Under the pieces are notes generated by a model. The model had not been told where the DNA came from and did not search any database. It saw only the letters and a list, made by a program, of their open reading frames with translations. 29,323 nucleotides of DNA from a virus. Of this stretch, positions 67-26,894 are shown piece by piece; positions within the stretch are counted from its first letter, which is position 1, and each line of letters begins with the position of its first letter. The stretch is taken from positions 1 to 29,323 of IMG/VR virus record IMGVR_UViG_3300018423_000044. The stretch is one strand, 5' to 3'. The translations under genes were made by a program, and so were the position numbers.

Positions 67-498
67 TTAGTGAGATTTGATTTCTATCTTTCTCGGACGC
101 TGTTCTTCGGGCAGTTCAACTCTGAGTTTGATCACAAGTAAACCGTTGACGAATTCAGCTCCATCAACGACAACGTGGTCAGCGAGTCTAAAGGTCTCCA
201 CAAATTTCTTTGTGGTGATACCCTTGTGAAGATAGGTTTTACCCGTCTCTTCTTCAGGGTTCCCTCGAATGATCAGAACACCGGGTTTTGCCTCGATCTC
301 TAGATCTTTCTTCTTGTAACCACCAAGTGCAAATTCCATAGCATACTCTTCGTCACTATACTTCACAATATTGTGACGAGGAAACCCTTTTTCATTTGCG
401 CCAACGGCAGTTAGTTTTTCTATCTCATCCCATACGTGGTCGAAACCAATGAAACGAGAATGTGGGAACGAAAACACTTTAGTTCGTGTATTAACCAT
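67..498 (-). CDS. hsp20: Small heat shock protein Hsp20 (alpha-crystallin family)
   Basis: The 143-residue product matches the IbpA/Hsp20 family in length and layout. A short N-terminal arm is followed by an alpha-crystallin beta-sandwich from about residue 40 to 130, including EYAMEFALGGYKKKDLEIE and the late GLLVIKL segment typical of the conserved A-x-x-x-N-G-V-L strand (here AEFVNGLLVI). The family works as ATP-independent holdases in the cytoplasm, and hsp20 genes are common in marine T4-like phages. The start has a strong AGGAGG site. A sigma70-like promoter lies upstream, so early, independent expression is likely. A role in protecting phage or host proteins, or in virion assembly, is inference. 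Confidence 0.9.
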   Translation of the reverse strand: MVNTRTKVFSFPHSRFIGFDHVWDEIEKLTAVGANEKGFPRHNIVKYSDEEYAMEFALGGYKKKDLEIEAKPGVLIIRGNPEEETGKTYLHKGITTKKFVETFRLADHVVVDGAEFVNGLLVIKLRVELPEEQRPRKIEIKSH

Positions 499-599: not shown

Positions 600-1217
600 T
601 TGAAATTAAAATTATTATCTGAAAAAGATTGTGCTGATGCAACTTCTTACATGCTGGAGTTAGAAAAAGAAGGTGCCTTGAAATATGAACGAGACCATGA
701 GTTTGGTCCTAGAAACAAAGAAACACTTCGATCATATATGGATCCATACTTCTGTGCATTAGCATTACAAGTCCAACCTCAACTCGAAGCGGCATGGGGT
801 ACACAACTCTATCCAACCTACACCTATACCCGGTTGTATAAAGAAGGGTTTATACTCAGACCTCATACTGATCGTCCTGCGTGTGAGTTATCTTCAAGCA
901 TCACTATTGGATATGGTGGGCGAGACACTCCTTGGGAACTGTATATTGAAAACGACGATAAAGAAGAAGTAGAATACATTTTAGAACCGGGCGAAGGTTT
1001 ATTATACGAAGGAAGAAAGTACACTCACTGGAGATACCCGTTAGATGAGGGTTGGCAAATTCAAACCTTTGTTCATTACATTCAAATTGGTGGTGAAGTA
1101 TATCAACAGGTAAAATACAAACAACCAGACTTTGATTTTTCTATTCCATTTCAGGACTTTGATTACACATCCGCTAAGGGAAGTAAAATGTTTATCAACA
1201 AATTGCCTAACTTCTAG
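600..1217 (+). CDS. 2-oxoglutarate/Fe(II) oxygenase-like protein, only plus-strand gene
   Basis: This 205-residue protein carries an H-x-D pair (H89, D91 in RPHTDRP) and a distal histidine (H143 in THWRYP) with the spacing of the double-stranded beta-helix fold of 2OG/Fe(II) dioxygenases. The usual C-terminal 2OG-anchoring Arg about 10 residues after the distal His is not obvious; R145 or glutamines near 153-155 are the nearest polar residues, so the co-substrate is less certain. The frame opens at a TTG codon with only a weak upstream purine stretch, and no upstream ATG is in frame; the next in-frame ATG is at 651. It is convergent with regA and shares its stop region. The substrate is unknown. 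The opposite strand to all its neighbours suggests separate acquisition. Confidence 0.7.
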   Translation: MKLKLLSEKDCADATSYMLELEKEGALKYERDHEFGPRNKETLRSYMDPYFCALALQVQPQLEAAWGTQLYPTYTYTRLYKEGFILRPHTDRPACELSSSITIGYGGRDTPWELYIENDDKEEVEYILEPGEGLLYEGRKYTHWRYPLDEGWQIQTFVHYIQIGGEVYQQVKYKQPDFDFSIPFQDFDYTSAKGSKMFINKLPNF

Positions 1218-1624
1218 ACTTTGTTTCCGATATTATACTTCGGACACAACTCCCAATCTTTTTTATCTTTGTGTGGGATAACTTTGATTTGACGTAGAGG
1301 AGCACAGTTAGTGATCTGACTTTTCTCTACGACTTTAACCAGACCCCAGTCTGACAATAGCGTAGTGATTGTGTTGCGTCTTTGAACATCGTTCTCTGTT
1401 AAGTTTGTTTTCTTACCGTCTAGTAAAAACAATTCTTTGAAATGAACGATAAAGTATCTACCCTGCTTGTGCAGAATATGACATGATTGAAATAGTTTAT
1501 TTTCTTTACGTGAAGCAACACCGATTCTCGTGAGAGTTTCACGGATCTTTAAAAAATCATCGGGTTGTTCGATGACGATCTCTACCATATCAGACGGAGA
1601 CCATTGTACGTTATTTTCTTCCAC
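1214..1624 (-). CDS. regA: RegA translational repressor
   Basis: The 136-residue product is recognisably T4 RegA, which is 122 residues. It keeps the DDFLKIRETLTRIG N-terminal segment, the LFQSCHILHKQGRYFIVHFKE core and the WELCPKYNIGN C-terminus. RegA binds the ribosome-binding region of several early phage mRNAs (in T4 including genes 44, 45 and rIIB) and shuts down their translation. The gene overlaps the end of 62 by 14 bases, as expected for translational coupling in the 44-62-regA operon. Its extra length is mostly a short N-terminal extension. In T4 the next gene is DNA polymerase 43; here that place is taken by a convergent oxygenase-like gene. Confidence 0.95.
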   Translation of the reverse strand: MEENNVQWSPSDMVEIVIEQPDDFLKIRETLTRIGVASRKENKLFQSCHILHKQGRYFIVHFKELFLLDGKKTNLTENDVQRRNTITTLLSDWGLVKVVEKSQITNCAPLRQIKVIPHKDKKDWELCPKYNIGNKV

Positions 1625-1985
1625 CTTTATCCACCTTGTGTAAAATTACTCTAAGTTGTTGCTCAGATAATAGAGGAAGAACCTGTAACGCTTTTTCCTC
1701 ACTGTATCCATAGTATTCTTTTATAGCAGATACTTCTTTAGATTCAGTATTCTTTTGCCATTTAGAAAACCGCTTTCTTTTTCTAAGAGTATTTATAAAA
1801 AAATCATATTGTAACCTAGAATCTAGGTGGTTCCACCTATTCATTTCGTTGGCAAGCAAGACGCTGTCCATAAAATATGACAAGGATCGATTGGTAAGAA
1901 AAGAATTATAATATGTTTCGTTTTCATCTGTCATAATATCTTTCTTAGTATCATTAACAGAATTCACAAAGTCAAACGGGTTCAT
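1611..1985 (-). CDS. 62: Clamp loader small subunit gp62
   Basis: This 124-residue protein sits just before regA, where T4 has gene 62. The N-terminus (MNPFDFVNSVNDTKKDI) and the Tyr/Lys/Arg-rich middle (WNHLDSRLQYDFFINTLRKRK) fit the short marine-phage version of gp62; the T4 protein is longer (187 residues). gp62 joins a gp44 tetramer to form the ATP-dependent loader that places the gp45 clamp on primed DNA. It overlaps the upstream oxygenase gene by 14 bases and regA by 14 bases, so translation is probably coupled. Identification rests on synteny plus a moderate sequence match. Confidence 0.85.
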   Translation of the reverse strand: MNPFDFVNSVNDTKKDIMTDENETYYNSFLTNRSLSYFMDSVLLANEMNRWNHLDSRLQYDFFINTLRKRKRFSKWQKNTESKEVSAIKEYYGYSEEKALQVLPLLSEQQLRVILHKVDKGGRK

Positions 1986-2532
1986 TATGCCTCACATTAA
2001 ATGCTATACAAATTCTGGTTGATTCAAATGCTTTTGAAGGGTTCACCCCGTGCATTACGGGAGAACCGAACAGCACAAGGTCACCGGACTTTGGTTCGAT
2101 TTCAGTTTCTAATTCCGGAAAAAATATTTCTCCGCAACCCGGTGTGGTCTTGAGATAGTACACGCCAGCAAAATCATTCTCATGCCCGTGTCCGTGAGGA
2201 CCACACGACTCTTCTGGTTCATATACCAAACCCCAAGCGTCTGCCATGGCATAGAAATTCTTGTTGCCTTTCATGTCTAGTCTTTCAAGCATCAGGTTAA
2301 TCAATTGACTTACCCTTCCGCAAAAAGGATTGAGATCTTTTCCGCCCCAATGAGCAGGTTGATAAATTTTACAATACGCTCTGTCCATACGAATAGAAGT
2401 CTGCTCTTGTTTATAAGATGCGTTCTCAGTAACCATGTTAGTCCACTTGTCCATTTCTTCTGGACGAAGAGAAAAATTAACCTTCGCAAGAAAAGGTTTT
2501 TGATTGTAAACTGTTATGTCTTCTTTTCGCAT
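1972..2532 (-). CDS. 2OG-Fe(II) oxygenase, PF13759-like
   Basis: The 186-residue protein has a histidine cluster HGHGHEND (113-120) followed by FAGVYYLKTTPGCGEIFF, then FGSPVMHGV with the distal His161 and STRICIAFNV with Arg173. This order (W...H-x-H...SGVYY...P.G.L.F...H.V...R.s.aFN) is that of the putative 2OG-Fe(II) oxygenase family PF13759, which is frequent in marine phages. Fe(II) would be held by the His cluster and H161, and 2OG by R173. It overlaps the preceding oxygenase gene by 19 bases and gene 62 by 14 bases, so it is embedded in the clamp-loader operon. The substrate is unknown; a virion protein, host protein or nucleic acid are all possible. Confidence 0.85.
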   Translation of the reverse strand: MRKEDITVYNQKPFLAKVNFSLRPEEMDKWTNMVTENASYKQEQTSIRMDRAYCKIYQPAHWGGKDLNPFCGRVSQLINLMLERLDMKGNKNFYAMADAWGLVYEPEESCGPHGHGHENDFAGVYYLKTTPGCGEIFFPELETEIEPKSGDLVLFGSPVMHGVNPSKAFESTRICIAFNVRHNEPV

Positions 2533-2969
2533 GCCTTATACCATGTTGCTATAACATATCTTTTGCCAGTTTCTATTCTTCCAACAGCATGACGATAAAA
2601 CATGCCATCAAAAAACAATCCACGTCCTCTTCGAGGAGAGACACTTATGTCATCGAACAAGGTATCTCCACCAAAATAATCATCGTTCAAATAGATTATG
2701 CTTGCAAGCGTAGTGTCTTCTTTTCCCGTGTCTATATGAAACGGCATTTGAGTACCCGGTTCCCACACGACTGTTTGCCACCAGTCTATCCTAGAATTAT
2801 TTAGATTTTTTGCAACAGAATTTAATCTGCCCCATAGATCTATCTCATCCGTAACGCCAGTAGTTTTTTGTCCGTGAAACTCTTTCTTCCACTGCTTTTT
2901 TTCTGCAGCAGATATCAACTCATAACATTCTTCATCGTCAAGAAAATTATCAATGATTTGAAAACTCAT
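2514..2969 (-). CDS. Small 2OG-Fe(II) oxygenase, prolyl hydroxylase-like
   Basis: The 151-residue product has a complete 2OG/Fe(II) dioxygenase signature: H78 and D80 (MPFHIDTG), distal H127 (FYRHAVG) and the 2OG-binding R137 (GKRYVIATWY). The segment SIIYLNDDYFGGDTLFDD between the two metal sites is typical of prolyl-4-hydroxylase-like double-stranded beta helices. Its ATG overlaps the gene 44 stop in an ATGA, and its end overlaps the next oxygenase gene by 19 bases, so the two oxygenases are likely made together from the gene 44 mRNA. Hydroxylation of a protein side chain is the most natural guess, but no substrate can be read from the sequence. Confidence 0.9.
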   Translation of the reverse strand: MSFQIIDNFLDDEECYELISAAEKKQWKKEFHGQKTTGVTDEIDLWGRLNSVAKNLNNSRIDWWQTVVWEPGTQMPFHIDTGKEDTTLASIIYLNDDYFGGDTLFDDISVSPRRGRGLFFDGMFYRHAVGRIETGKRYVIATWYKACEKKT

Positions 2970-3904
2970 ACGAACTCTACGTTAGTCATAACTTCTGTGA
3001 AACAAGCAACAAGATTCAACTCGTGATCTGCAACAAAAGCATTCTTATACTGGTAGTCTGCAAGAATTAAAACTAATGCCGGGATAGATTGTGGTTTGAT
3101 GTTGTCTGTCATTCTATCGTATACGGTACGAAATATAACAGTAGTATCAAGGTCCACATTAGACGCTACCCACTTGCGCATCTTGTTAAAATCTTTCTCT
3201 TTAAGATGTTTGAAAAGCGAGTCATAGTTGTCACTGCTAATTGTCGCGTCTGCAGATACGCCTCCGATAACAGATCGCTGCAACTCGTTAACGATTCTAC
3301 GCCAGTCGGGTGCGTGACGCATGATCAGTTTAGCAATGCTTTCTCTTTGAGGTGCGGCATTGCCGTATCCCTCTTCTCTGAGAATATGACACGCTCGTTT
3401 CAAGAACTGATCGCACAAACCAACCATATCTTTTTTGGTGGTATTGAATTCATACACACCACAACGAGAATGTAACGGTTCGATGATCCGGTTCTTAAAA
3501 TTACACGTAAGAATAAATCGGCAGTTGTCAGAGAACTGCTCAATGAATCCACGCAAAGCAGGTTGGGTTGATTGCGGGTTAAGGTAGTCTGCCTCATCGA
3601 GAATGACCACTTTGTACCCAGCAGATAAAGATACCGTAGAAGCAAAATGACGAATCTTCCCTCGAAGAGTGTCGATGTTACCTTCTTCAGACCCATTGAT
3701 TACGATGTAATCGAGTCCTAGTTGTTCGCACAAGGCACGTGCAACCGTAGTCTTACCCAGACCAGCAGTCCCACAAAACAACATGTTAGGCAACTCTCCA
3801 CTTTCTAAGAGAGAAGTAAACGTTTGCTTAAGTGTATCGGGAAGAATACAGTCCTCAATCTTTTGAGGTCTATATTTCTCTACCCACAAAAAGTCTTTTG
3901 CCAT
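2966..3904 (-). CDS. 44: Clamp loader ATPase large subunit gp44
   Basis: The 312-residue protein (T4: 319) is a AAA+ sliding clamp loader subunit. It opens with FLWVEKYRPQ and has Walker A GTAGLGKT (45-52), Walker B VVILDEAD (99-106) and the SRC motif in PLHSRCGV (about 146-148), which supplies the arginine finger in trans. With gp62 it loads the gp45 clamp for DNA polymerase and, in T4-like phages, for late transcription. The ATG has a GAGG site, and a strong hairpin terminator lies just upstream, between this gene and the small gene after 45. It overlaps the following oxygenase gene by 4 bases. Confidence 0.97.
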   Translation of the reverse strand: MAKDFLWVEKYRPQKIEDCILPDTLKQTFTSLLESGELPNMLFCGTAGLGKTTVARALCEQLGLDYIVINGSEEGNIDTLRGKIRHFASTVSLSAGYKVVILDEADYLNPQSTQPALRGFIEQFSDNCRFILTCNFKNRIIEPLHSRCGVYEFNTTKKDMVGLCDQFLKRACHILREEGYGNAAPQRESIAKLIMRHAPDWRRIVNELQRSVIGGVSADATISSDNYDSLFKHLKEKDFNKMRKWVASNVDLDTTVIFRTVYDRMTDNIKPQSIPALVLILADYQYKNAFVADHELNLVACFTEVMTNVEFV

Positions 3905-3920
3905 TTCTTTTCCTCATAAT

Positions 3921-3951
3921 AAAAAAATAAAAGAGCGGCAAGATGCCGCTC
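3921..3951 (-). terminator. Rho-independent terminator between the gene 45 unit and gene 44
   Basis: On the minus strand a perfect 8-bp stem GAGCGGCA/TGCCGCTC with a TCT loop (3933-3951) is followed by TTTTATTTTTTT. It lies after the 74-codon-frame gene and before gene 44. No sigma70-like or late promoter is visible between it and the gene 44 ATG, so gene 44 must depend on read-through or antitermination. Confidence 0.88.
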
Positions 3952-3972
3952 ACCAAAACGGAAAAGATAAAT

Positions 3973-4185
3973 TTAGACTTCTTCAGGAGTTTCTTCAGCG
4001 GGTGCTGGTGCTTCTACACCCTGTGCTGCTTCGATCATCTGTACCAAAGCGATACACTGATCACGCAACTGACCAATCGTAGAGAGTTCTTCTCCACGGA
4101 ATGCTCCTCGTGAAGTCATAGTATCAATTACAGCAACGGTGCTGCGAGTGATACGATTACCAAGGTCCATCATTTCTTCGTTCAT
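3973..4185 (-). CDS. Small acidic conserved-position protein between 45 and 44
   Basis: This protein of about 70 residues is not assigned to a family. It is predicted to be mostly helical (MNEEMMDLGNRITRSTV..., QLRDQCIALVQMIEAAQ) with an Ala/Pro/Glu-rich acidic tail. I chose the ATG at 4185 because GGAG lies 6 bases upstream and the ATG follows the gene 45 stop by one base. An earlier in-frame ATG at 4197 lies inside gene 45 and has no ribosome-binding site. Its place after the clamp and before a terminator means it is made with gp45, so a clamp- or replication-related accessory role is possible. The sequence itself does not prove this. Confidence 0.75.
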   Translation of the reverse strand: MNEEMMDLGNRITRSTVAVIDTMTSRGAFRGEELSTIGQLRDQCIALVQMIEAAQGVEAPAPAEETPEEV

Positions 4186-4186
4186 C

Positions 4187-4861
4187 TTATTCTCCATAAG
4201 TGCTAGATTTTTCGAGTGCTACCCAATATTCAATCTTGGTATTTTTATTAACAAAGTGTGAGATGCCTAAATGAGAGATGCTAACATCATAGTCACCTTC
4301 AACCATCTTCAAGTTATTAATGTTAAAAACAAAATTGAAATCTTCTTTTGTGTATGTCCCGTCTAGTTCAACCACATAAGCATTAGAAGTACTATCGCTA
4401 TTGTCTGCAACTGACAAACACACGATACTATCTATACACTTTACACTGACTTCTGTGTGTCCTAGAACAGAAGATGCTCTTCGGATTTTAGAAAGCGTGT
4501 TGTGATCAAGGACAAACTTTACGTCTGCATCCATGTTCTTCACGGGTCCAGAAGGTTTGGTAAGAATATCAATATCAGAGTAGTAATACTTGATACGTGT
4601 TCTACCAACGGAGTCACACACAGTGACAAAATCATCCTCAAATTTCAGTTCTGGTTTGTCAACAAGATTGAGTACCGCAAGGAACTCGTTCAAGTCGAAG
4701 ACACCGAACTGTTTCGGAAACTCGACATCAACTATACATTTACTGACAACGTTTTTTGCTTCGGAAATCGTCTGCAAAACATTGCCTTCGTTGATAACGA
4801 TGTTTGGATTTATTGACGCAAAGTTTTTTAGAACTTGCATGGTCTGTTCACTAATCATCAC
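4187..4861 (-). CDS. 45: Sliding clamp gp45 (DNA polymerase processivity factor)
   Basis: The 224-residue protein has the length (T4: 228) and position of gp45. Recognisable segments are FASINPNIVINEGN near the N-terminus, LNEFLAVLNLVDKPEL and the VEGDYDVSISHLGISHF C-terminal region typical of phage clamps. A gp45 trimer encircles DNA, tethers the polymerase, and activates late transcription by contacting gp55. Translation can start at GTG 4861 (7 bases after AGGA) or at ATG 4858 (10 bases after); both are given by the same site. A consensus sigma70-type promoter directly upstream gives this gene its own early transcription. Confidence 0.95.
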   Translation of the reverse strand: MMISEQTMQVLKNFASINPNIVINEGNVLQTISEAKNVVSKCIVDVEFPKQFGVFDLNEFLAVLNLVDKPELKFEDDFVTVCDSVGRTRIKYYYSDIDILTKPSGPVKNMDADVKFVLDHNTLSKIRRASSVLGHTEVSVKCIDSIVCLSVADNSDSTSNAYVVELDGTYTKEDFNFVFNINNLKMVEGDYDVSISHLGISHFVNKNTKIEYWVALEKSSTYGE

Positions 4862-4888
4862 AATTTATTCCTCAAAAAGTTATACACC

Positions 4889-4916
4889 ATTATACACGAT
4901 AGAAAGGTTTTGTCAA
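4889..4916 (-). promoter_or_regulatory. Sigma70-like promoter for gene 45
   Basis: A perfect TTGACA -35 box (4911-4916) and a perfect TATAAT -10 box (4889-4894) are separated by 16 bp on the minus strand. The predicted transcript would start about 24 bases before the gp45 start and carries a TGAGGA ribosome-binding site. The promoter fills the short gap between the oxygenase gene at 4913-5515 and gene 45, with the -35 box overlapping the oxygenase stop region. Confidence 0.85.
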
Positions 4917-5515
4917 CCATTCTTAGGTCCCCATGCCCATCCAACCAAAGAAGCACGAACACCTTCCTGCACGGGACAAACTCGATGGTAGGTTCTACTT
5001 GGAAACACAACCATAGATCCAGTGTTATCGAGTTTGTGAAGGGTCTTAATTATTGCCTTGCCTTCTCTAGTAAAACTTGAATGTAATTGAAACTGTCCTC
5101 CCGTATATGATTTGGGATCATTTAGAAGAACAGTGAAACTTAATTTTCTATTCCTTGGTTCAGTAGTATCGAAGGCATCTTTGTGCCAAGAGTAGTGCCC
5201 ATCTTTAGAGTAGATGCCCAATTGAAAAGCTTCAAATTCATTGATATCATATTTCCAAAGCATCTTATTGACTTCACCAATCTTAGAGACAATTCTATCT
5301 CTCAATTTAGTATGCCGGAACCAATATAAAGTAGTGTTTCTAACAGTAAGATCTACTGCTCCGGACCCGGATCCTATTTGTCCTTGACTACCCCTTCCGT
5401 GTTTTTGTCCATATTGAATTGCTCCTTGACATTCTTTTAGAGTAAGAACGTTTGGCAGAACAATATATTCTGGCATTGCCTCGTACTCTTTTTCAGCACG
5501 GTTTAAATATTTCAT
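4913..5515 (-). CDS. 2OG-Fe(II) oxygenase, PKHD-type hydroxylase-like
   Basis: The 200-residue protein has a full 2OG/Fe(II) set: H111 and D113 (YSWHKDAF), distal H177 (SRTYHRVCPV) and R187 (GVRASLVGWAWGP). LSFTVLLNDPKSYTGGQFQL between them is typical of PKHD-type and prolyl-hydroxylase-like enzymes. It starts inside the end of gene 46 (ATGA overlap) and ends at the gene 45 promoter, so it closes the 47-46 operon. In T4 this interval between 46 and 45 holds rpbA and small genes. The substrate is not readable; a protein side chain is the usual target of this family. Confidence 0.9.
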   Translation of the reverse strand: MKYLNRAEKEYEAMPEYIVLPNVLTLKECQGAIQYGQKHGRGSQGQIGSGSGAVDLTVRNTTLYWFRHTKLRDRIVSKIGEVNKMLWKYDINEFEAFQLGIYSKDGHYSWHKDAFDTTEPRNRKLSFTVLLNDPKSYTGGQFQLHSSFTREGKAIIKTLHKLDNTGSMVVFPSRTYHRVCPVQEGVRASLVGWAWGPKNG

Positions 5516-7218
5516 GCTACCTTGCTAAAGTTTTTGTCTTTAACGAACTCGATCTTACGATCAAACTTGTTGTCTAACAGTTCGCCTTTGTGAGATATGA
5601 TAAACACATTAGTGTCATTGTCAAGAGTGTCTAGGATCTTCAATAGATTCTCAACACCGTCAGCATCAAGAGAGGAGTCAAACGTCTCGTCAAGAATCAA
5701 CAGATTAGTAGCAACAGAGTTTTTCATCTTCGCAATCTGTCTCCACGTAAACAGAAGAGCAAGATCTATCCGTTGCTTCTCGCCCTCACTAAACGAGGAA
5801 TAACTGAATGCGTCTCTGTGTCTTGATCGTATTGTCTCGTTGAACCCCTCATCCAAGTCAAAGTGGACATAGAAGTCGAGGACTTGCAGGTACTGATTCG
5901 TGAGTTTATTAATAACGGGCAAGTATTGTTTGATGATTTTGGTTTTGATACCTGAGTCTTTGAGCAATTCTGTAATAACGTTATTGTATTCCCGCTCCTC
6001 TGCGAGGTCCATTTTCCTTTGCACGATCTCTTCACGAGATCTTCGAAGATCTTCAAGCGTAGATTTTGCGGTTTGCAAACTATCCAAGTCCTGCCCCCCT
6101 TGGGATAGATCACACTGTAGACTTCGAATCCTCTCTTGGGTTCTTTTAATGTCACGCCTGTACACCTCGACATCTTGGAACTTAGATGTTTCTTCGGACA
6201 AAAGGTTTTCATTATCTGCTATCTCTTTTTGAGAAGATATTATTTCGAATCCCAACGTGACGGATGCGTCTTCGATTTCTTGTCTTGATTCTGAAGTTTC
6301 TTTGATTTTTCTATTTTTGGTATCAACGGTGATCTCTTGATCGCAGGTGGGACATGTGTCGTTATCCTCATAAAAGGCAATATCCTTATCAAATTTCTTT
6401 AGTTTAGATTCAAACTGAAAGTCAAACTTCTGCATTTCAGTAAGTTTTTTCTTACTAACATATAACAACTTTTCTATTTCTCGAAGTCGAGTATCAGTGT
6501 ACCCTTCGACGAGTTCCTCCAAGCGGGCCAACTCTGCTTGCTGCTCAGTGAGTTCAGTCTCAAGTTTGTCTTTAGCAGATTCAGAGATTTTTTCTAGTTC
6601 GACGATATGATCTTTCTGGGTATCTATCTTCGAATCATTCAGTTCAAGAGCATACTCGTTCTCTCGAATCGAATCTTTTAGCACAGCAATCTTCTCTTTA
6701 AGAACCGTGTTCATTTTTGAGAAGACGTTGATATCTAATAGATCTTCAATCACCTCACGGCGGTGTTGTGCGGGGAGTTGCATAAAAGGAATGAAACTGC
6801 TACTCCCCAGCACAACAATCTGGTGAAAAGATTTGTGGTTAAGTTTTAGAATGTTCTGTTCTAAAATCTTTTGATATTCTTTGGCATGACTATCTTGATT
6901 GATCATAGTACCGTCTTGCCAAATCTCAAACTTTGCTGGTTTAATACCACGAACAATTTTAAATTGCTGTCCCAACGCATCAAACTCTACTTCAACCAAA
7001 CAGTCTTTGTTGTTGACGGTGTTGATCAACTGTGGTTTGTTGACGTTTCGGTGTGCCTTACCGAACAAAGCAAACGACAAAGCGTCGAGCATGGTAGACT
7101 TACCTGAACCGTTTTGACCAACCACCAATGTAGAACTGGTATTAGTTAAATTGATTTCGGTGAAGGTGTTACCTGTGGATAGAAAATTTTTATAACGAAG
7201 TTTTGTAAATACGATCAT
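5512..7218 (-). CDS. 46: Recombination nuclease subunit gp46 (SbcC/Rad50-like ATPase)
   Basis: The 568-residue protein (T4: 560) is an SMC/Rad50-type ATPase. It has Walker A GQNGSGKS (34-41), a long coiled coil, a zinc-hook CPTC (289-292), a second coiled-coil arm, the ABC signature FSEGEKQR (476-483) and Walker B LLILDE (506-511). With gp47 it resects double-strand ends for recombination-dependent replication and degrades host DNA. The start overlaps the gene 47 stop as ATGA, which supports fixed-ratio translation. All catalytic elements look intact. Confidence 0.97.
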   Translation of the reverse strand: MIVFTKLRYKNFLSTGNTFTEINLTNTSSTLVVGQNGSGKSTMLDALSFALFGKAHRNVNKPQLINTVNNKDCLVEVEFDALGQQFKIVRGIKPAKFEIWQDGTMINQDSHAKEYQKILEQNILKLNHKSFHQIVVLGSSSFIPFMQLPAQHRREVIEDLLDINVFSKMNTVLKEKIAVLKDSIRENEYALELNDSKIDTQKDHIVELEKISESAKDKLETELTEQQAELARLEELVEGYTDTRLREIEKLLYVSKKKLTEMQKFDFQFESKLKKFDKDIAFYEDNDTCPTCDQEITVDTKNRKIKETSESRQEIEDASVTLGFEIISSQKEIADNENLLSEETSKFQDVEVYRRDIKRTQERIRSLQCDLSQGGQDLDSLQTAKSTLEDLRRSREEIVQRKMDLAEEREYNNVITELLKDSGIKTKIIKQYLPVINKLTNQYLQVLDFYVHFDLDEGFNETIRSRHRDAFSYSSFSEGEKQRIDLALLFTWRQIAKMKNSVATNLLILDETFDSSLDADGVENLLKILDTLDNDTNVFIISHKGELLDNKFDRKIEFVKDKNFSKVA

Positions 7219-8276
7219 ACAATTTCTAAGGACTGTGCCTCTATCATCAAACTACGAACATTAGATTTGATACGTTCTTTATCGAGATCCGTATCTACAG
7301 CATCTATGTAACTATACAACAATTCATCAGTGCTGTCAACATTTATTTTATCGTCCTCAACCTGTGCACCAGCAAAGTCTTGAAAGTTCTCTGCAATCTG
7401 TAACCCGTGAATCTTCTGGAAGTTTACGCGATCTAGAAACTTCTCAAACTCTGCGGGTTTGGTTTTATTGACAACAATGATCTTAACAAAATGATCATTC
7501 ATTTTAGAAACATCAATCAAGTTAGGATTCTTTTCTTTGTCATCATACAAGATCTTAGAAAAGATAGTGACTGGGTTTTCTACGGCAGTCAGTTCACGAG
7601 TCTCGGTGTCGAGGACATGAAAGTACTTACGATCATTGCAGTCGGACCAGAAGAATTCCATTTGCGAACCAAGGTAGTGGATGTTGTTTGCTTGTGACTT
7701 GGTGTGAAAGTGTCCAGATAGAACCATCTCAAACTTACGAAAGGTGCTAGGGTCCATACCATCATGACAAGGAATGCCTGCCTGCATATCAAACCCTGCT
7801 AATTCAAGATGAGCAGCACACATATCTGCTTTACAAGTAGCAATAGCATACTTGACCTTCTCCTCGTTCTCTGTGTTGATCCATGGGAGAAGAAGCATCT
7901 TCAAACCATCGTAGTCCATCACCGTAGGTTCTTCTACGATGTTCACTTCGTTCATGTAGTGACCAAGCAATTCTTTCAGGGCATTTAATCGATTGGTGTT
8001 TTTGTAGTAAACATCATGATTACCCGGAATAATATCCATGTGGATACCACGATCCCTAAGAACGTCAAGGAATATTCTGCGATTGTGGTTAAGTGCTTTA
8101 AAATTGATCGAAGTTCTATTTTCATAATAGTCTCCCAGATGTAGAATCTTTTTGATTCCTTGTTCTTCCAGATATGGAAAGAAAACATCTCGATAGAATT
8201 TCTCCTGATAGTCCATAAAGATTTCAGAAGAGTTTCGTATACCACAATGGGTATCATTTAGTATTGCTATTTTCAC
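7215..8276 (-). CDS. 47: Recombination nuclease subunit gp47 (SbcD/Mre11-like)
   Basis: The 353-residue protein (T4: 339) is a calcineurin-like phosphoesterase. Metal-binding motifs are present in order: D8 and H10 (NDTHCG), D49 (LGDYYENR), N86-H87-D88 (GNHD), H156 (AAHLEL) and H189/H191 (GHFHT). It is the nuclease partner of gp46. It starts with GTG, which shares bases with the TGA of the upstream 52-residue gene (GTGA), so translation is probably coupled to that gene. No strong ribosome-binding site is visible before the GTG. Confidence 0.96.
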   Translation of the reverse strand: MKIAILNDTHCGIRNSSEIFMDYQEKFYRDVFFPYLEEQGIKKILHLGDYYENRTSINFKALNHNRRIFLDVLRDRGIHMDIIPGNHDVYYKNTNRLNALKELLGHYMNEVNIVEEPTVMDYDGLKMLLLPWINTENEEKVKYAIATCKADMCAAHLELAGFDMQAGIPCHDGMDPSTFRKFEMVLSGHFHTKSQANNIHYLGSQMEFFWSDCNDRKYFHVLDTETRELTAVENPVTIFSKILYDDKEKNPNLIDVSKMNDHFVKIIVVNKTKPAEFEKFLDRVNFQKIHGLQIAENFQDFAGAQVEDDKINVDSTDELLYSYIDAVDTDLDKERIKSNVRSLMIEAQSLEIV

Positions 8277-11513: not shown

Positions 11514-11542
11514 ATTATATCACTTGATCTCAAAGTAGTCAA
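11514..11542 (-). promoter_or_regulatory. Sigma70-like promoter for uvsY-uvsW
   Basis: TTGACT (11537-11542) and TATAAT (11514-11519) on the minus strand are separated by exactly 17 bp. The -35 box and spacer lie inside the last codons of the upstream tail-tube-like gene. The predicted leader is about 17 bases. This is the boundary between the late structural block and the early/middle block. Confidence 0.8.
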
Positions 11543-12020
11543 ATCGAAAGGTTGCGGGAAAGGTGATATACTCCCCGTCTGATGTTGAAGCAAACTGAAC
11601 ATCACCTAGTCCTATAGGCAATGCATTCTTATATAGTATGCTGAAATTAGCATTGTTGGATGAGGTGAGAATAGTTACCGTCAAATCGTGGTATGTTGTA
11701 GGGACGCTGCCTTCCCGACTAAACTTTTTAGATTGCGGTGTGTGCTCCTCGTTGATTGTTCGAAGCATCCAATCGTACATTTCTTTATACGATTCAAAAT
11801 TTTCGTCAGCAAGGATGTCTAGCGTAACGGATCCGTTTTCTATCTGATTGCCAGCAAAGGGAATGTTTGATACCCTTTTGAATCCTAACTCAACAGGACT
11901 TAATTCTACTGAGGGGTGCTGAATAGACTGAGCAAAATATTGTAGGTGTGACTGATACTCACGAGTAATCGTGATACGAAACCCATTGGGTTGAAGTCCG
12001 TTGAAGTTATCTATTTCCAT
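11520..12020 (-). CDS. Tail-tube-like structural protein (gp19-like fold)
   Basis: The protein of about 167 residues (from the ATG at 12020) begins with the pattern NGFRITITREYQSHLQYFAQSI and then GSVTLDILADENFESYKEMYDW, TTYHDLTVTIL, FSILYKNALPIGLGDVQF and FPATFRFDYFEI. This strand order is that of T4-type tail tube proteins. It is distinct from gp19 at 26367-26894. Its place after gp23 is one where marine T4-like phages carry a tail completion gene, sometimes called gp3, so that is the main alternative name. An in-frame GTG at 12050 lies inside a terminator stem and is unlikely as a start. The ATG lies only 5 bases after a late promoter box. Confidence 0.7.
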   Translation of the reverse strand: MEIDNFNGLQPNGFRITITREYQSHLQYFAQSIQHPSVELSPVELGFKRVSNIPFAGNQIENGSVTLDILADENFESYKEMYDWMLRTINEEHTPQSKKFSREGSVPTTYHDLTVTILTSSNNANFSILYKNALPIGLGDVQFASTSDGEYITFPATFRFDYFEIK

Positions 12021-12025
12021 GAGAT

Positions 12026-12033
12026 TATTTATA
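12026..12033 (-). promoter_or_regulatory. T4-type late promoter, tail-tube-like gene
   Basis: TATAAATA on the minus strand lies between the gp23 terminator and the next ATG. By T4 spacing, transcription would start at or next to the A of the ATG (12020). Confidence 0.8.
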
Positions 12034-12036
12034 CTC

Positions 12037-12061
12037 AAAAAAAGGGGCACCGTAGTGCCCC
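12037..12061 (-). terminator. Rho-independent terminator after major capsid gene 23
   Basis: The minus-strand RNA folds as a perfect 7-bp stem GGGGCAC/GTGCCCC with a UACG loop closed by C-G, a member of the very stable UNCG tetraloops, followed by seven T. It lies about 30 bases after the gp23 stop and directly before the next late promoter. Confidence 0.93.
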
Positions 12062-19276: not shown

Positions 19277-21262
19277 TTACGCTGGGTTTCTATAATTTCT
19301 ATCTGCGACCTGATTGCTTGGAAAACTATTGTTATCTGCAGTGATAGATTGACCAGTATTTAAAATAGGATCAGATCCCGTTCGGTATACCAAAAAATCT
19401 ACAGTCGTACCACTTGCAATTTGAAACTGGTATCTAGCATCAATTTTTTCAACCGTAACTGTTAATGAGTTAGCAGAATTCAACAAAGTGCCAAAGGCAG
19501 AAGTGAACCCAGAAAACGTTGTAGTTGTATCTATAGTGGACGCAGAAGGTGTTCCTGAAACTTCAAACTCATCAAATAAAAATAACGAAGGGTTCACACT
19601 GTTATCTCTCACTGTAACACGAATACGATCTCCTGCCGCTAGAGATACAGGAATCAAACTTGAGTCTGATAATACTCCGCTAAAACTACTACCACTTGAG
19701 TTGATTCTTACTGTGGTGTTATCAGAATATGTTAGATCTGTTACAGTGTCAGCACTGACGGTTTCTACTGCATCAAAAGAAGAAACTGCAGGTTGACCAC
19801 CTGTACCGTCCCATGAATAAGGAGAAGGACTATTAAGAACAGTAACTTCTGTGTTGCCAAGCAATCGTGTAATGCTTGCTGTAACGTTTGCTACAACGGT
19901 TGTTGTTGCATTCACACCATTACGAACAGTTACGTTAGTGCCTCCATCGACATTAATTGTGACTGCACCACCTGAATTATTATAAACCATCGCATCAGTT
20001 GATCCTGAGTTAGATGTGTTGTTGGTTCCGGGATTGGCAGTTGAATAACCAGAAAAATTCCAATTAGTAAAAGAATAAGTACCTGTCGCTGTTATATACA
20101 CAGCGTGACCAGATCCACCACTTGTAAAAGTAAAATCAGTTTGGTTCGTCGTCTGCCCGTTTGTGTCAAGTAATATTGCACCGAGTGCAGAAGATGTAGA
20201 TCCTGATATTGAAATGTCGCTTGCGGTAATCGTTGCAAAATCCAATTGACCACAACCAATAAAGGTTGTACCAGTAACTTGTCTTGTCGTGCCGCCAGAT
20301 ACAGGGAAACTCATTGACCCCATATCCAAGATCGTGCAGTCTGTAATATCTAAAACATTGATGTTCGTATCTGTCATGTCCCAGATTGCACCTTCACCGG
20401 GCGATGCCATTACAGTATTGTTTAATACGAATGAGTTAGTACCTGTTGAATTACCGAATACTCTGAAGATCCAATTGCCTGATCCGATGCCAGTGCCATC
20501 TAAGAAAATCTGTTCGTTGGTTGATGAAAAATAAGAATCGCCAGTGCCTGAATCGCCAAACTCTGTTGATGCATAGAGCGTATATGATGCACCCGGACCA
20601 GACGCAAACAATCCCCAACCATTTGTACTTGTATTGTCTTGTGACACAAGTGTTGCGAGAGTAATCGGCGTACCAGATGTTCCTTGATTGACTGTAAATG
20701 CATAAGAGTTATTTGCATTAGAAGTAATACGATCAACCCATAAGTTGTTTACGTTACCACGAGCAGCAGTTACGTGTAAAGAACCGTATCCAATATCTGT
20801 GACAGCAGTCGTACTCAGGTTACCTAATGTACCGTTGTGTGCAAACGAAGAAAAAGATCCGATATTACTGACATCTAATCGAATACAATAATATGTTTTA
20901 CCAAGAACAAGTCCGGGATTATCGTTTCCGCCAACGTAAAAACCAATGATTGCTGAAGCACCACCAGTTCCGTTTGCTAATACGATTTGAAAACCGCCGT
21001 TTGCCTGTGTATCAATCAGGTTATCTTTTACCAATAACCAAACAGTCGAGGCAGATAAGTCTTCATTGAGAGCAGTACCAGCGGAGTTTTCACCGACTAT
21101 GATATACTCTTGAGCGTTAGTAAACTGAGCGCCCATGCATTCTGAACCTTCATAGTAAACTTCGTCACCAGAAGACACACCCTGCAAATCGGGGTTGTCG
21201 GTTCCGTTCCAACCTGCATCCTGCTCGCAATCATTGAGTTCTGTGCGATTGTCTACTGCCAT
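19277..21262 (-). CDS. Beta-helix-like virion/fibre protein (661 residues)
   Basis: The sequence is dominated by Ser, Thr, Gly and Asn with repeating short strands, for example GGTTRQVTGTTFIGCGQLDF, DISISGSTSSALGAILL, GHAVYITATGTYSFTNWNF and GGAVTINVDGGTNVTVRNG. This is the pattern of right-handed parallel beta-helix (pectate-lyase-like) phage fibre and receptor-binding proteins. The N-terminal 120 residues and the C-terminal 150 are separate beta domains. No hydrolase catalytic triad can be picked out by eye. The C-terminal end (QVADRNYRNPA) matches the end of the 637-residue protein two genes upstream. The start follows the small acidic gene with no gap. Confidence 0.75.
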   Translation of the reverse strand: MAVDNRTELNDCEQDAGWNGTDNPDLQGVSSGDEVYYEGSECMGAQFTNAQEYIIVGENSAGTALNEDLSASTVWLLVKDNLIDTQANGGFQIVLANGTGGASAIIGFYVGGNDNPGLVLGKTYYCIRLDVSNIGSFSSFAHNGTLGNLSTTAVTDIGYGSLHVTAARGNVNNLWVDRITSNANNSYAFTVNQGTSGTPITLATLVSQDNTSTNGWGLFASGPGASYTLYASTEFGDSGTGDSYFSSTNEQIFLDGTGIGSGNWIFRVFGNSTGTNSFVLNNTVMASPGEGAIWDMTDTNINVLDITDCTILDMGSMSFPVSGGTTRQVTGTTFIGCGQLDFATITASDISISGSTSSALGAILLDTNGQTTNQTDFTFTSGGSGHAVYITATGTYSFTNWNFSGYSTANPGTNNTSNSGSTDAMVYNNSGGAVTINVDGGTNVTVRNGVNATTTVVANVTASITRLLGNTEVTVLNSPSPYSWDGTGGQPAVSSFDAVETVSADTVTDLTYSDNTTVRINSSGSSFSGVLSDSSLIPVSLAAGDRIRVTVRDNSVNPSLFLFDEFEVSGTPSASTIDTTTTFSGFTSAFGTLLNSANSLTVTVEKIDARYQFQIASGTTVDFLVYRTGSDPILNTGQSITADNNSFPSNQVADRNYRNPA

Positions 21263-21578: not shown

Positions 21579-23492
21579 TTATACTGGGTTGCTGTAGTTT
21601 CTTTCTACAGCAGAGATTACAGAGTAGGACTGGTTGTCAACCCTATCGATAATCTGACCACCTAGTTCCACCCAGTTACCGTTTTCTAATCCGATTGCAC
21701 GGATTACAATAGCAGGGTCTACGGCATCAGCAGAAGTCCTTCTATCTTTCTGACTGTTACCGTCATAGTCATATGCGAAGGAGAAAGTTTCACCTGCGCC
21801 TGACAAATTAGCAGGTGCTAATGTTGCGGTAATACCACCAGTGTTCTCAACGGCAGTACCCGCAGAGTCTACTAAAAGCGATCCCGGAGAGTTCAATGGA
21901 TGAGTATACAAAAACGCTCCGACTTTAGTTTCCGCGCCAAGATCAACGTCATCTATAGTATTGACTCGTAGGAAATTAGTTCCAGTTGTTCCAATTACCT
22001 TAAGAATCGTATCGTTGTTTCCGGGAGTTGAAGTAAATCCGCCCAAACGAATATAGTTGTCGCCTTCAGTTCCAGCATCAATACCACCAGTTGTGATTGG
22101 GTTTGCAGCAAGTCCTGTGGTTCCAGAGAAACCAGTCAAAGTAATATTGGCACTATCTAATGCAGAATTACCAGCAGCAGGACCAACGTTTGCGATATCG
22201 ATCTGAGATGAACCTCCACCATAAGCTCGTGTATAATCGTAGTATACGAAGAACTTCGCAGAAGAACTGTCAAGTTTAATTTCGTTAGAGAAACTAATAG
22301 ATCCGTTTGCGGTGAATGGGAAAGATCTTTCAGCACCAGCATTATCACGGAATACCAAGTTGTTCACGTCAGTCGATAAGAAGTTCTGAATTGCTACTCC
22401 TATACCACCGCCATCAATATTGGTAACGTTTTTAGTTTTAAGGGTAGGACCAACGAACTCAAGAAGTTCGTCTTGCAATTTACCGATCTTAGAAGCACCA
22501 GCAGAGTCTTCAATATTAAGATCTGAACGAAGACGGAATTGAACCCATGAATACAGTTCTTGTGCTCCAAGGTTAGCACCGCCATCACCTGCAACCGCGT
22601 CAATAACAACACCAAAGTTTGCGGTACCACCAGTCAAAGGTTTGGTGTATCCAAGGTTTGACTGTTCAATTGTGTTAGTTCGGTAAATAATCTTAGGACC
22701 AGCATTGTCTGCGGAGTCATAACGATTATTTGTATTCAATCTCAAATTAGCATCGGTAATCGAAACGTTAAGATCTTGACCTTCTACAAGCGGGAATCGC
22801 TGCGTGTTATACGGCAATACCGACCCTGCCGCGATACCGATATCTCTTGTGTCAGTTTGGTCATAGGTTTTGCCTTCTTCACGAATAAACAAACGAAGAA
22901 TATCCCCACGATAATCAGTACCACCGTTAATATAGGTGTTGATTGCTTGGTTTACTTCTCCGGGGAAAGAGAAGTTAAGAGCACCAGATTTAGGACCATT
23001 GGTTGCTGAATCAAAGAAAGCATAATAAACAAGATCCTGATCTGTAGCACCGATTGTTCCTGTTTGAACACCATCGATGTTACCCAAAGATACAACACCA
23101 AGATATTCACGGTTCAGGGTAGTGTTGTTTTCTGCGTATTCTCTCCATCCACCAAAACGAATTAAATCTCGCGAACTATCATCAGACATCTTCCATCCAT
23201 AACGGAATTCGAACTGTTCTGGTGTAATAGCAATCAAGGGGAAAGGATATGCGATCAACTGTTTATTTACAGGATCGTCTTTCCATTGCTGTTTAAGAAA
23301 ACTGTACAATGCCTGCATGGAAACTCCGTCTTCGTTAAGAAGAGCACCAGAAGCATTAGTATCTGTTCCGTCTTGTCCGTTGTTTAATCGGATAGTCCTA
23401 TTCGCCGTATTAATAAAAACATTAGGACCCGTAGCGGAGACTTTATTGCTCGCGCTGTCTGTTAAAAAATCCGGATCTATGATTGTTGCCAT
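21579..23492 (-). CDS. Large virion structural protein (637 residues)
   Basis: No family is assigned with certainty. The N-terminal 150 residues (MATIIDPDFLTDSASNKV..., then QALYSFLKQQWKDDP and EQFEFRYGWKMSDDSSRDL) look like an attachment domain. The rest is beta-rich and Gly/Asn/Asp/Thr-rich, as in baseplate or fibre proteins of marine phages. The C-terminus ISAVERNYSNPV matches the end of the 661-residue protein. It has its own late promoter 34 bases upstream, an AGGGGA site and its own downstream hairpin, so it may be made in large amounts. The context says virion component; enzymatic motifs are not seen. Confidence 0.75.
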   Translation of the reverse strand: MATIIDPDFLTDSASNKVSATGPNVFINTANRTIRLNNGQDGTDTNASGALLNEDGVSMQALYSFLKQQWKDDPVNKQLIAYPFPLIAITPEQFEFRYGWKMSDDSSRDLIRFGGWREYAENNTTLNREYLGVVSLGNIDGVQTGTIGATDQDLVYYAFFDSATNGPKSGALNFSFPGEVNQAINTYINGGTDYRGDILRLFIREEGKTYDQTDTRDIGIAAGSVLPYNTQRFPLVEGQDLNVSITDANLRLNTNNRYDSADNAGPKIIYRTNTIEQSNLGYTKPLTGGTANFGVVIDAVAGDGGANLGAQELYSWVQFRLRSDLNIEDSAGASKIGKLQDELLEFVGPTLKTKNVTNIDGGGIGVAIQNFLSTDVNNLVFRDNAGAERSFPFTANGSISFSNEIKLDSSSAKFFVYYDYTRAYGGGSSQIDIANVGPAAGNSALDSANITLTGFSGTTGLAANPITTGGIDAGTEGDNYIRLGGFTSTPGNNDTILKVIGTTGTNFLRVNTIDDVDLGAETKVGAFLYTHPLNSPGSLLVDSAGTAVENTGGITATLAPANLSGAGETFSFAYDYDGNSQKDRRTSADAVDPAIVIRAIGLENGNWVELGGQIIDRVDNQSYSVISAVERNYSNPV

Positions 23493-23535: not shown

Positions 23536-24624
23536 TTATGAATACGTGAAGGTTAACCTGTTATCCCATATTTTTGTAAAATCTGCGGTTCCTTCTGCCC
23601 ACAATATATTATAATCATGACCAACTTCTTCGATTCGTTTGATACGCCACTTCGCTTCTGCAGTTCCTGTACCGGGTTGTGCTTCTCCTACGTAAGTGTA
23701 AGGAGATTCACAGTCGATTAGTTTGTTGTATTGTGTCTCCACGTCTACTTTCAACCTCTGTAATACTTCTGACATATTGGTCACGACAAATTTTTTCTTT
23801 GTCGGATCATATATTAATATAGAATCTTCTTCGACAACAGAAAGTTGTTTGTATTCAACATCTGCGTTATCAAGAATTTTATAAGAACCACCGCCGCCAA
23901 GTGTACTCAAAGAACGATTGATGCGATCAATCTGGTTCTGTATATTTTTATCGACTGTGCTTTGATTCTCTGTCAGTCTTACATTAAATTGTTCTAATGC
24001 TTTTTCAAATTCTTCTCTATAGTCTGGTGCTGGTGTTCCGGGTTCTCCCTTTTCTCCCTGCGCTCCATCCTTGCCATCGCGTCCAGCAACTCCGGGTATG
24101 CCTTGTTCACCTTTTTCACCGCGTTCTCCACGAGGTCCTTGTGCTCCGGTTTCGCCTTTGTCTCCCTTAACGCCGCGTTGTCCTGTCTTCCCTCGTTCTC
24201 CTTGCGGACCTGTCTCACCTCTTTCACCTTTTTCACCACGAAGTCCAGTATCTCCTTTGTCTCCTTTGATACCTTTTTCACCACGTTCGCCTTTGTCTCC
24301 CTTATCTCCTTTGACACCTTGGATTCCTTGGGGACCCACATCTCCTGTGTCGCCCTTGTCTCCTTTCTCTCCGGTGTCTCCTTTTTCTCCGGGGATACCT
24401 TGGAGACCTTGTTCACCAATAGGTCCGGGTGATCCATCATTACCAGCGGGACCACGTTCTCCGCGTTCGCCTTGATCGCCTTTATCCCCTTTGAGACCCA
24501 TTGGTCCCTCAGTTTTCTGAACTTCTTCCAGAACATCGAAGATCCTGTCTTCTAACTTTTTAATTTCTTCCTTTGTGTGTGCAATAGCAAACGCAGAAGA
24601 AAGTATTGGATTAACCTTCTTCAT
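23536..24624 (-). CDS. Collagen-like repeat virion protein
   Basis: The 362-residue protein has a helical N-terminus ([20 protein letters not shown]), then 53 uninterrupted Gly-X-Y triplets (residues 40-198). A helix likely to be a trimeric coiled coil follows ([19 protein letters not shown] through NRSLSTL), then a GGGG hinge and a beta-rich C-terminal domain. The triplets are rich in GEK, GDK, GER and GDT, so K-G-E/K-G-D ionic pairs known to stabilise triple helices are frequent. Such a protein would form a trimeric rod on the virion. It overlaps the end of portal gene 20 by 14 bases and has only a weak ribosome-binding site, so translation is probably coupled to gp20. Confidence 0.9.
24028..24507 (-). 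repeat. Collagen Gly-X-Y repeat tract
   Basis: This tract encodes 53 consecutive Gly-X-Y triplets without interruption. At the DNA level the nine-base units are degenerate. The opposite strand reads as a long Pro/Ser-rich open frame, which is a shadow of the repeat and not a gene. Confidence 0.9.
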
Positions 24625-26366: not shown

Positions 26367-26894
26367 TTAACTCGTCGTATTTGATTCCCAATACTGATAC
26401 GCAAACTCAACATCGAACTGTTCGATTGCTGTTTGCTGATCATAGTCTAGTGGTATTGCACTAACAGATACGGGGAAAGCACCACGAAAATCATATCTCT
26501 TAAGAACTTTTTCGTTTCTATCTAACTGCTCTACTGTAAGGTCTGCCTGATAATCTACAGGGTTAACCAAACCAGTGTTTGCAGAATGAGAATTGATACC
26601 ATTGACCCAACGTTCGAAAGAATCTCTTACGACGAATCCAGTATCATTCAAGATAGTTACCTGCCAGTTCTCGAAAGTACGATCACCTGCCATCTTGAGG
26701 ATACGTCCTCTGAAAGGAACCTCAATAGTCCCAGTGGATGCAGCAGGAATTGCAGCGGTGCGACAAAGGAAAGATGTCAGTTCGACATCTCCCCCTGCGT
26801 ATGCTGGAAAGTTAAGTGTAACCTTAAATAGATTAGCACGTGCACCACCACCAGTCAGTTTTGATTTAAAGTCATCGACTCCTAAAATTGCCAT
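26367..26894 (-). CDS. 19: Tail tube protein gp19
   Basis: The 175-residue protein (T4: 163) follows the sheath gene as in T4. It starts MAILGVDDFKSKLTGGGARAN and has VEVPFRGR-type and FENWQVTILND strands, an ERWVNGIN helix and the C-terminal AIEQFDVEFAYQYWE characteristic of T4 tail tubes. Hexamer rings stack to make the inner tube that is driven through the host envelope when the sheath contracts. The start has AAGGAG 7 bases upstream. A strong terminator after the gene suggests a separate abundant gp18-gp19 transcript. Confidence 0.95.
   Translation of the reverse strand: MAILGVDDFKSKLTGGGARANLFKVTLNFPAYAGGDVELTSFLCRTAAIPAASTGTIEVPFRGRILKMAGDRTFENWQVTILNDTGFVVRDSFERWVNGINSHSANTGLVNPVDYQADLTVEQLDRNEKVLKRYDFRGAFPVSVSAIPLDYDQQTAIEQFDVEFAYQYWESNTTS

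Follow-up and report, generated by a model that had tools for sequence, protein, structure and literature searches.

2OG/Fe(II) oxygenase genes in T4-like marine phages

The T4-like cyanophages carry an expanded set of many small, dissimilar genes of the PF13640 and PF13759 types, which encode 2-oxoglutarate (2OG)/Fe(II) oxygenases. Up to five such genes were listed by Sullivan et al. (2010), in addition to a GC615 'ferrochetalase' gene (PMC3037559), ten were reported in S-CREM1 (PMC9964418), and 24, with mutual identities of no more than 44.2%, were reported in S-SCSM1 (PMC9602691). Here, we analyzed a stretch of 29,323 nucleotides (IMG/VR record IMGVR_UViG_3300018423_000044; hereafter, the window), a 29.3-kb piece of a marine T4-like phage whose virus record contains no further contigs. 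Four 2OG/Fe(II) oxygenase-like genes, named genes 1 to 4, are located within 5 kb in or beside its replication block. They are very probably four divergent members of the fast-turning-over oxygenase set of marine T4-like phages, with the family of gene 1 having an oxygenase fold and not being ferrochelatase, and no coordinated program is needed to explain their presence.

The 2OG genes were counted in other phages by merging the matches to PF13640, PF13759, and phrog_2954. S-P4, S-SSM4, S-RSM4, S-RIM50, ACG-2014f, S-SCSM2R, S-CAM8, P-SSM2, and S-T4 had 7, 12, 13, 13, 9, 13, 8, 21, and 9 genes per genome, and the maximum numbers within 5 kb were 2, 3, 7, 3, 3, 4, 5, 4, and 4, respectively. Thus, five of these nine T4-like cyanophages, as well as the window, have at least four 2OG genes in some 5-kb region. 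Three 2OG genes were also found in the podovirus HTVC023P. The gp44-gp46 block contained six 2OG genes in P-SSM2, two in S-T4, and one each in S-P4, S-SSM4, ACG-2014f, and S-CAM8. In the replication block of the Prochlorococcus phage P-SSM2, one 2OG gene has a 4-base overlap with the gp46 stop codon, like gene 4 in the window, two are located directly before gp44, and further ones lie between gp44 and gp62. The P-SSM2 genes in this block are, however, other members of the superfamily than those of the window, and none of them is of the phrog_2954 type. In contrast to the nine cyanophages, C48C1 (Kyanoviridae), the nearest relative found, had no match to PF13640, PF13759, phrog_2954, or the collagen model in its whole 156-kb genome.

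The initial annotation, made from the letters of the window, had regarded a single 2OG oxygenase as the norm and four as special. The counts of 7 to 21 in the nine cyanophages and of 24 in S-SCSM1 contradict this view, and four dissimilar 2OG genes in 5 kb among replication genes are ordinary for T4-like marine phages. The window does not differ in kind from the known expansion, except that its four genes happen to sit in or beside the replication block. As a cluster, it adds one example to this expansion, and the useful new point is the re-annotation of the gene 1 family. The claim that the four genes encode 2OG/Fe(II)-type oxygenases was supported, with a strength that differs among the genes as described below, whereas their exceptionality was not.

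Predicted fold and conserved residues of the four products

All four open reading frames (ORFs) listed in the initial annotation are present (Table 1), and the motifs named for them are present and conserved in relatives. The genes were also correctly described as not being close copies, since no pair scored more than 2 standard deviations above shuffled sequence in global alignment. The set of His/Asp ligands with a distal His, assigned to all four, was found as HxD...H in genes 1, 3, and 4, but gene 2 has HxH...H and no conserved Asp. Iterated hidden Markov models merged all four families; such models can drift via fused proteins, and homology was not argued from this result.

Gene 1 had no match in Pfam or NCBIfam, and its family matched no PDB chain by sequence, but the gene matched phrog_2954 in PHROGs with an E-value of 5e-38. 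Its start codon is uncertain (TTG at 600, with no clear ribosome site). Starting from 12 phage relatives, viral contigs were scanned for the family, which gave at least 599 confirmed stretches, and 80 were kept. Among 64 aligned sequences, Y74, R78, Y80, H89, D91, R92, C95, S98, G131, Y136, H143, R145, Q155, and H159 were invariant, and the putative iron-ligand set H89/D91/H143 was conserved in 64 of 64. An AlphaFold2 model of gene 1, calculated with an alignment of gene 1 and 63 relatives, had a mean predicted local distance difference test (pLDDT) score of 86.9 and showed a double-stranded beta helix of the prolyl-hydroxylase type. The predicted helix and the invariance of the His/Asp residues in relatives are the two features whose absence the initial annotation had named as speaking against its assignment. 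In a Foldseek search with this model, the PDB matches listed were all of the 2OG type and included prolyl-4-hydroxylase (E = 2e-8), PHD2, and PiuC. The comparison by VIA gave Z scores of 17.0 for PiuC (9ghl; root-mean-square deviation of 2.7 over 155 residues), 16.5 for the Pseudomonas putida prolyl-4-hydroxylase, and 16.4 for PHD2. By hhalign, the gene 1 family aligned with the gene 3 family with a probability of 94.8, with HxD and the distal His aligned, whereas no significant alignment with the gene 4 family was obtained (probability of 2). Because of the latter result, gene 1 is placed in the superfamily by the comparison with gene 3 and by the fold. A few members of the gene 1 family gave weak PF13532/PhyH matches. 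The predicted fold and the invariant residues support well the assignment of gene 1 to the 2OG/Fe(II) oxygenase type.

Genes 2, 3, and 4 exceeded the curated cut-off of 27 bits for PF13640 and PF13759. Profile searches of the kind proposed in the initial annotation gave matches for these three genes but not for gene 1. Gene 3 matched PF13640 with 39.1 bits (E = 1.5e-9); H78/D80/H127 are invariant in its relatives, and the position of the anchor residue R137 is occupied by R or K in the family. Gene 4 matched PF13640 with 62.3 bits (E = 9e-17), and H111/D113/H177/R187 are invariant in its relatives. The closest solved relatives by sequence were prolyl-4-hydroxylases for gene 3 and PiuC for gene 4. 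Among solved structures, prolyl-4-hydroxylases and the PKHD-type PiuC thus stand nearest to genes 3 and 4 in sequence and to gene 1 in fold, at identities of only about 10–20%. The profile matches and conserved residues strongly support the prediction that genes 3 and 4 encode 2OG/Fe(II) oxygenases.

Gene 2 matched PF13759 with 42.8 bits (E = 7e-11). H113/H115/H161 are invariant in eight of eight aligned relatives, and an Arg is located 12 residues after the distal His. The profile of the gene 2 family matched the solved structures 2RG4 and 3BVC with an E-value of 1e-14, and both of these PF13759 proteins share HxH with gene 2, although gene 2 by itself falls under the TIGR02466 cut-off. Gene 2 is thus supported at the family level as a putative 2OG/Fe(II)-type protein of PF13759 with an HxH motif.

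Several points weigh against these assignments. The gene 2 family lacks a conserved Asp/Glu ligand in the eight aligned relatives and does not have the HxD/E...H pattern. Gene 1 lacks the usual 2OG-anchoring Arg or Lys about 10 residues past the distal His; Q153 is located there and is variable in relatives. Without this canonical Arg, gene 1 might depend on a different cosubstrate or lack activity. A single-sequence AlphaFold prediction of gene 1 had a pLDDT of only 34, and a good model was obtained only with the alignment. The 80 loci of the gene 1 family are the best-scoring ones and not a random sample. In place of the +10 Arg, R145 (+2 from the distal His), R78, and Q155 are invariant in the gene 1 family. 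Other branches of the 2OG superfamily anchor 2OG by different means, and therefore the missing Arg lowers the 'canonical' status of gene 1 but not its fold assignment.

The 'ferrochelatase' label of the gene 1 family

The family of gene 1 corresponds to phrog_2954/phrog_3531 and T4-GC615, which are labeled 'ferrochelatase' and are widespread in phages. The label differs from the predicted fold and the conserved residues, which are of the 2OG-oxygenase type. The ferrochelatase model PF00762 had no match at E ≤ 1 in the window and 11 phage records, while it was positive in 10 of 14 control genomes, and it had no match in 64 members of the gene 1 family. Moreover, the 'ferrochelatase' of P-SSM2, PSSM2_169, exceeds the PF13640 cut-off. 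Judging from the fold and the conserved residues, the phrog_2954 family almost certainly has an oxygenase fold and is not ferrochelatase.

A second, canonical 2OG domain is fused to 17 of the 80 gene 1-family members. In total, 64 of the 80 are fused with a 2OG gene or adjacent to one on the same strand, compared with 168 of 724 other genes on the same contigs. In other phages, genes of the gene 1 and gene 4 families are often neighbors or fused, and this arrangement makes it probable that both families function in a single pathway. Phage 'ferrochelatase' genes have been listed among the auxiliary metabolic genes that marine phages carry, with an interpretation in terms of iron or heme (PMC9599517; PMC11561400). 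In one of these studies, genes of the phrog_2954 type were read as ferrochelatase and a 2OG oxygenase was always adjacent (PMC9599517); in the other, phrog2954 was used explicitly as ferrochelatase and co-occurred with 2OG oxygenases (PMC11561400). No paper questioning the label was found in open-licence text. The published co-occurrence of 'ferrochelatase plus 2OG oxygenase' is probably that of two oxygenases. If phrog_2954 genes do encode oxygenases, what those papers detected was a pair of oxygenases, and it would then have to be asked on which substrate two adjacent or fused 2OG oxygenases act. We see an even chance for a more specific proposal, in which phrog_2954 is an unrecognized 2OG/Fe(II) branch with another cosubstrate anchor, abundant in marine phages, that acts in tandem with, and is sometimes fused to, a PiuC/prolyl-4-hydroxylase-like oxygenase of the gene 4 family, and in which the 'ferrochelatase plus oxygenase' pair forms a two-step oxygenase pathway. 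Given its abundance in viral contigs, the gene 1 family merits an experiment.

Two other phage families appear to be mislabeled in a similar manner. PSSM2_163 of P-SSM2 ('denV / DNA endonuclease V', phrog_274) is over the PF13640 cut-off, and the PF03013 (Pyr_excise, pyrimidine-dimer glycosylase) homology corresponding to its label was not found for it; the PF03013 homologue of P-SSM2 is PSSM2_151 (L124 5641-6171), which is annotated as 'DNA binding protein'. The 'DNA endonuclease' of S-RSM4 (phrog_2297) also exceeds the PF13640 cut-off. The tested members of phrog_274 and phrog_2297 are 2OG proteins as judged by these matches.

Possible roles of the four genes and their surroundings

On the minus strand, the genes are arranged in the order gp55, gp47, gp46, gene 4, gp45, a small ORF, gp44, gene 3, gene 2, gp62, regA, and hsp20 (Table 1). 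The initial annotation had placed all four genes among the replication genes. This holds for genes 2 to 4, which are inside the gp47-46-45-44-62-regA block and are packed into it by overlaps with gp46, gp44, gp62, and each other. Gene 1 is encoded on the plus strand, flanked by hsp20 and regA; it converges on regA with a 4-base overlap and is thus outside the replication transcription unit. A strong terminator-like hairpin was observed at 3951-3933, before gp44.

Table 1. Positions of the four oxygenase-like genes and of neighboring features in the window
Feature	Position	Strand	Remarks
Gene 1	600..1217	+	phrog_2954 family, 'ferrochelatase' in PHROGs; assigned here to the 2OG/Fe(II) oxygenase fold (predicted)
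Gene 2	1972..2532	-	PF13759/TIGR02466-like putative 2OG-Fe(II) oxygenase; shares 14 bases with gp62 and 19 with gene 3
Gene 3	2514..2969	-	PF13640, prolyl-4-hydroxylase-like; phrog_2297 ('DNA endonuclease'); start overlaps gp44 stop
Gene 4	4913..5515	-	PF13640, PiuC/PKHD-type hydroxylase-like; phrog_61; 4-base overlap of its start with the gp46 stop
Hsp20	67..498	-	Neighbor of gene 1
RegA translational repressor	1214..1624	-	
gp62 clamp loader subunit	1611..1985	-	
gp44 clamp loader ATPase	2966..3904	-	
gp45 sliding clamp	4187..4861	-	By position and alignment to C48C1
gp46 recombination endonuclease subunit	5512..7218	-	
gp47 recombination endonuclease subunit	7215..8276	-	
Exact sigma-70 consensus (TTGACA, 16, TATAAT; 12/12)	4889..4916	-	Between gene 4 and gp45, just upstream of gp45; consensus match only

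Each of the four products is predicted to be a single double-stranded-beta-helix domain of about 150–205 residues, which would most likely bind Fe(II) via the conserved facial residues and use O2 and 2-oxoglutarate for the hydroxylation of a substrate. Fe(II)/2OG-dependent activity is thus predicted for all four. As prolyl-4-hydroxylases and PiuC are the solved proteins nearest to genes 3 and 4, the products of these two genes appear likeliest to hydroxylate a peptidyl or small-molecule target of the host or the phage. The product of gene 1 may have a changed cosubstrate anchor involving R145, R78, and Q155, and it belongs to a family that usually adjoins or fuses with a second 2OG oxygenase. 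Genes 2 to 4 are probably co-transcribed with the replication and recombination genes that they overlap, and we infer from this overlap that they may be active early, an argument that does not apply to gene 1.

Among other explanations, the four genes might function in DNA or nucleotide chemistry, such as AlkB- or Tet-like repair or base modification, in keeping with their recombination and replication neighbors. Such a role was suggested for the Syn9 2OG genes adjoining uvsX and uvsY (PMC2984593), and relatives gave weak Tet_JBP and Oxygenase-NA matches. We consider it unlikely, as the solved proteins nearest in sequence are prolyl hydroxylases and PiuC rather than AlkB, and genes 2 to 4 have no AlkB Pfam match.

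The overlap of genes 2 to 4 with replication genes, together with the frequent adjacency or fusion of the gene 1 and gene 4 families elsewhere, is also consistent with one hydroxylation program in which the four act early and jointly on a shared target, e.g., clamp-loader/recombination, host ribosomal, or nitrogen-control proteins. However, C48C1 has the same replication block with no match to PF13640, PF13759, or phrog_2954, indicating that the replication genes do not need these oxygenases. The same families sit beside tail-fiber or structural genes in other phages, and gene 1 is read from the other strand; such a program is quite improbable.

Similarly doubtful is a role as virion protein hydroxylases acting on a collagen-like protein, which the initial annotation had listed among the possible substrates. 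Such a protein is indeed encoded in the window (23536-24624, minus strand), beside the gp20 portal gene, with 53 Gly-X-Y triplets in which Y is Lys in 16 and Pro in 5. Genes 3 and 4 resemble prolyl-4-hydroxylases, and C48C1 lacks both collagen and 2OG matches. On the other hand, S-RSM4, S-RIM50, S-CAM8, S-T4, S-SSM4, and S-P4 have 7–13 2OG genes and no PF01391 match, and therefore collagen cannot be the general substrate. Finally, that gene 1 is truly ferrochelatase or another heme enzyme supplying iron or heme to the oxygenases, as the PHROGs label and its published interpretation (PMC9599517; PMC11561400) would imply, is strongly disfavored and scarcely credible in view of the lack of PF00762 matches in every record and family member, the predicted 2OG fold (Z of 17), and the PF13640 score of PSSM2_169. 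Divergent members of a fast-turning-over oxygenase set, with no joint program, thus remain the preferred explanation for the four genes.

In phage records, only the major capsid gene of the window had near DNA matches, and the phage is therefore new at the genome level. Its gp23 was 62% identical to that of C48C1 and about 56% identical to those of T4-like phages of cyanobacteria, Pelagibacter, and Methylophilales. Two large ORFs among the structural genes, at 19277-21262 and 21579-23492 on the minus strand (661 and 637 amino acids, respectively), had no PHROG match. Two gp19-like tail-tube paralogues, both of phrog_45, were found at 11520-12050 and 26367-26894 on the minus strand, and the second copy is located between uvsY and gp23.

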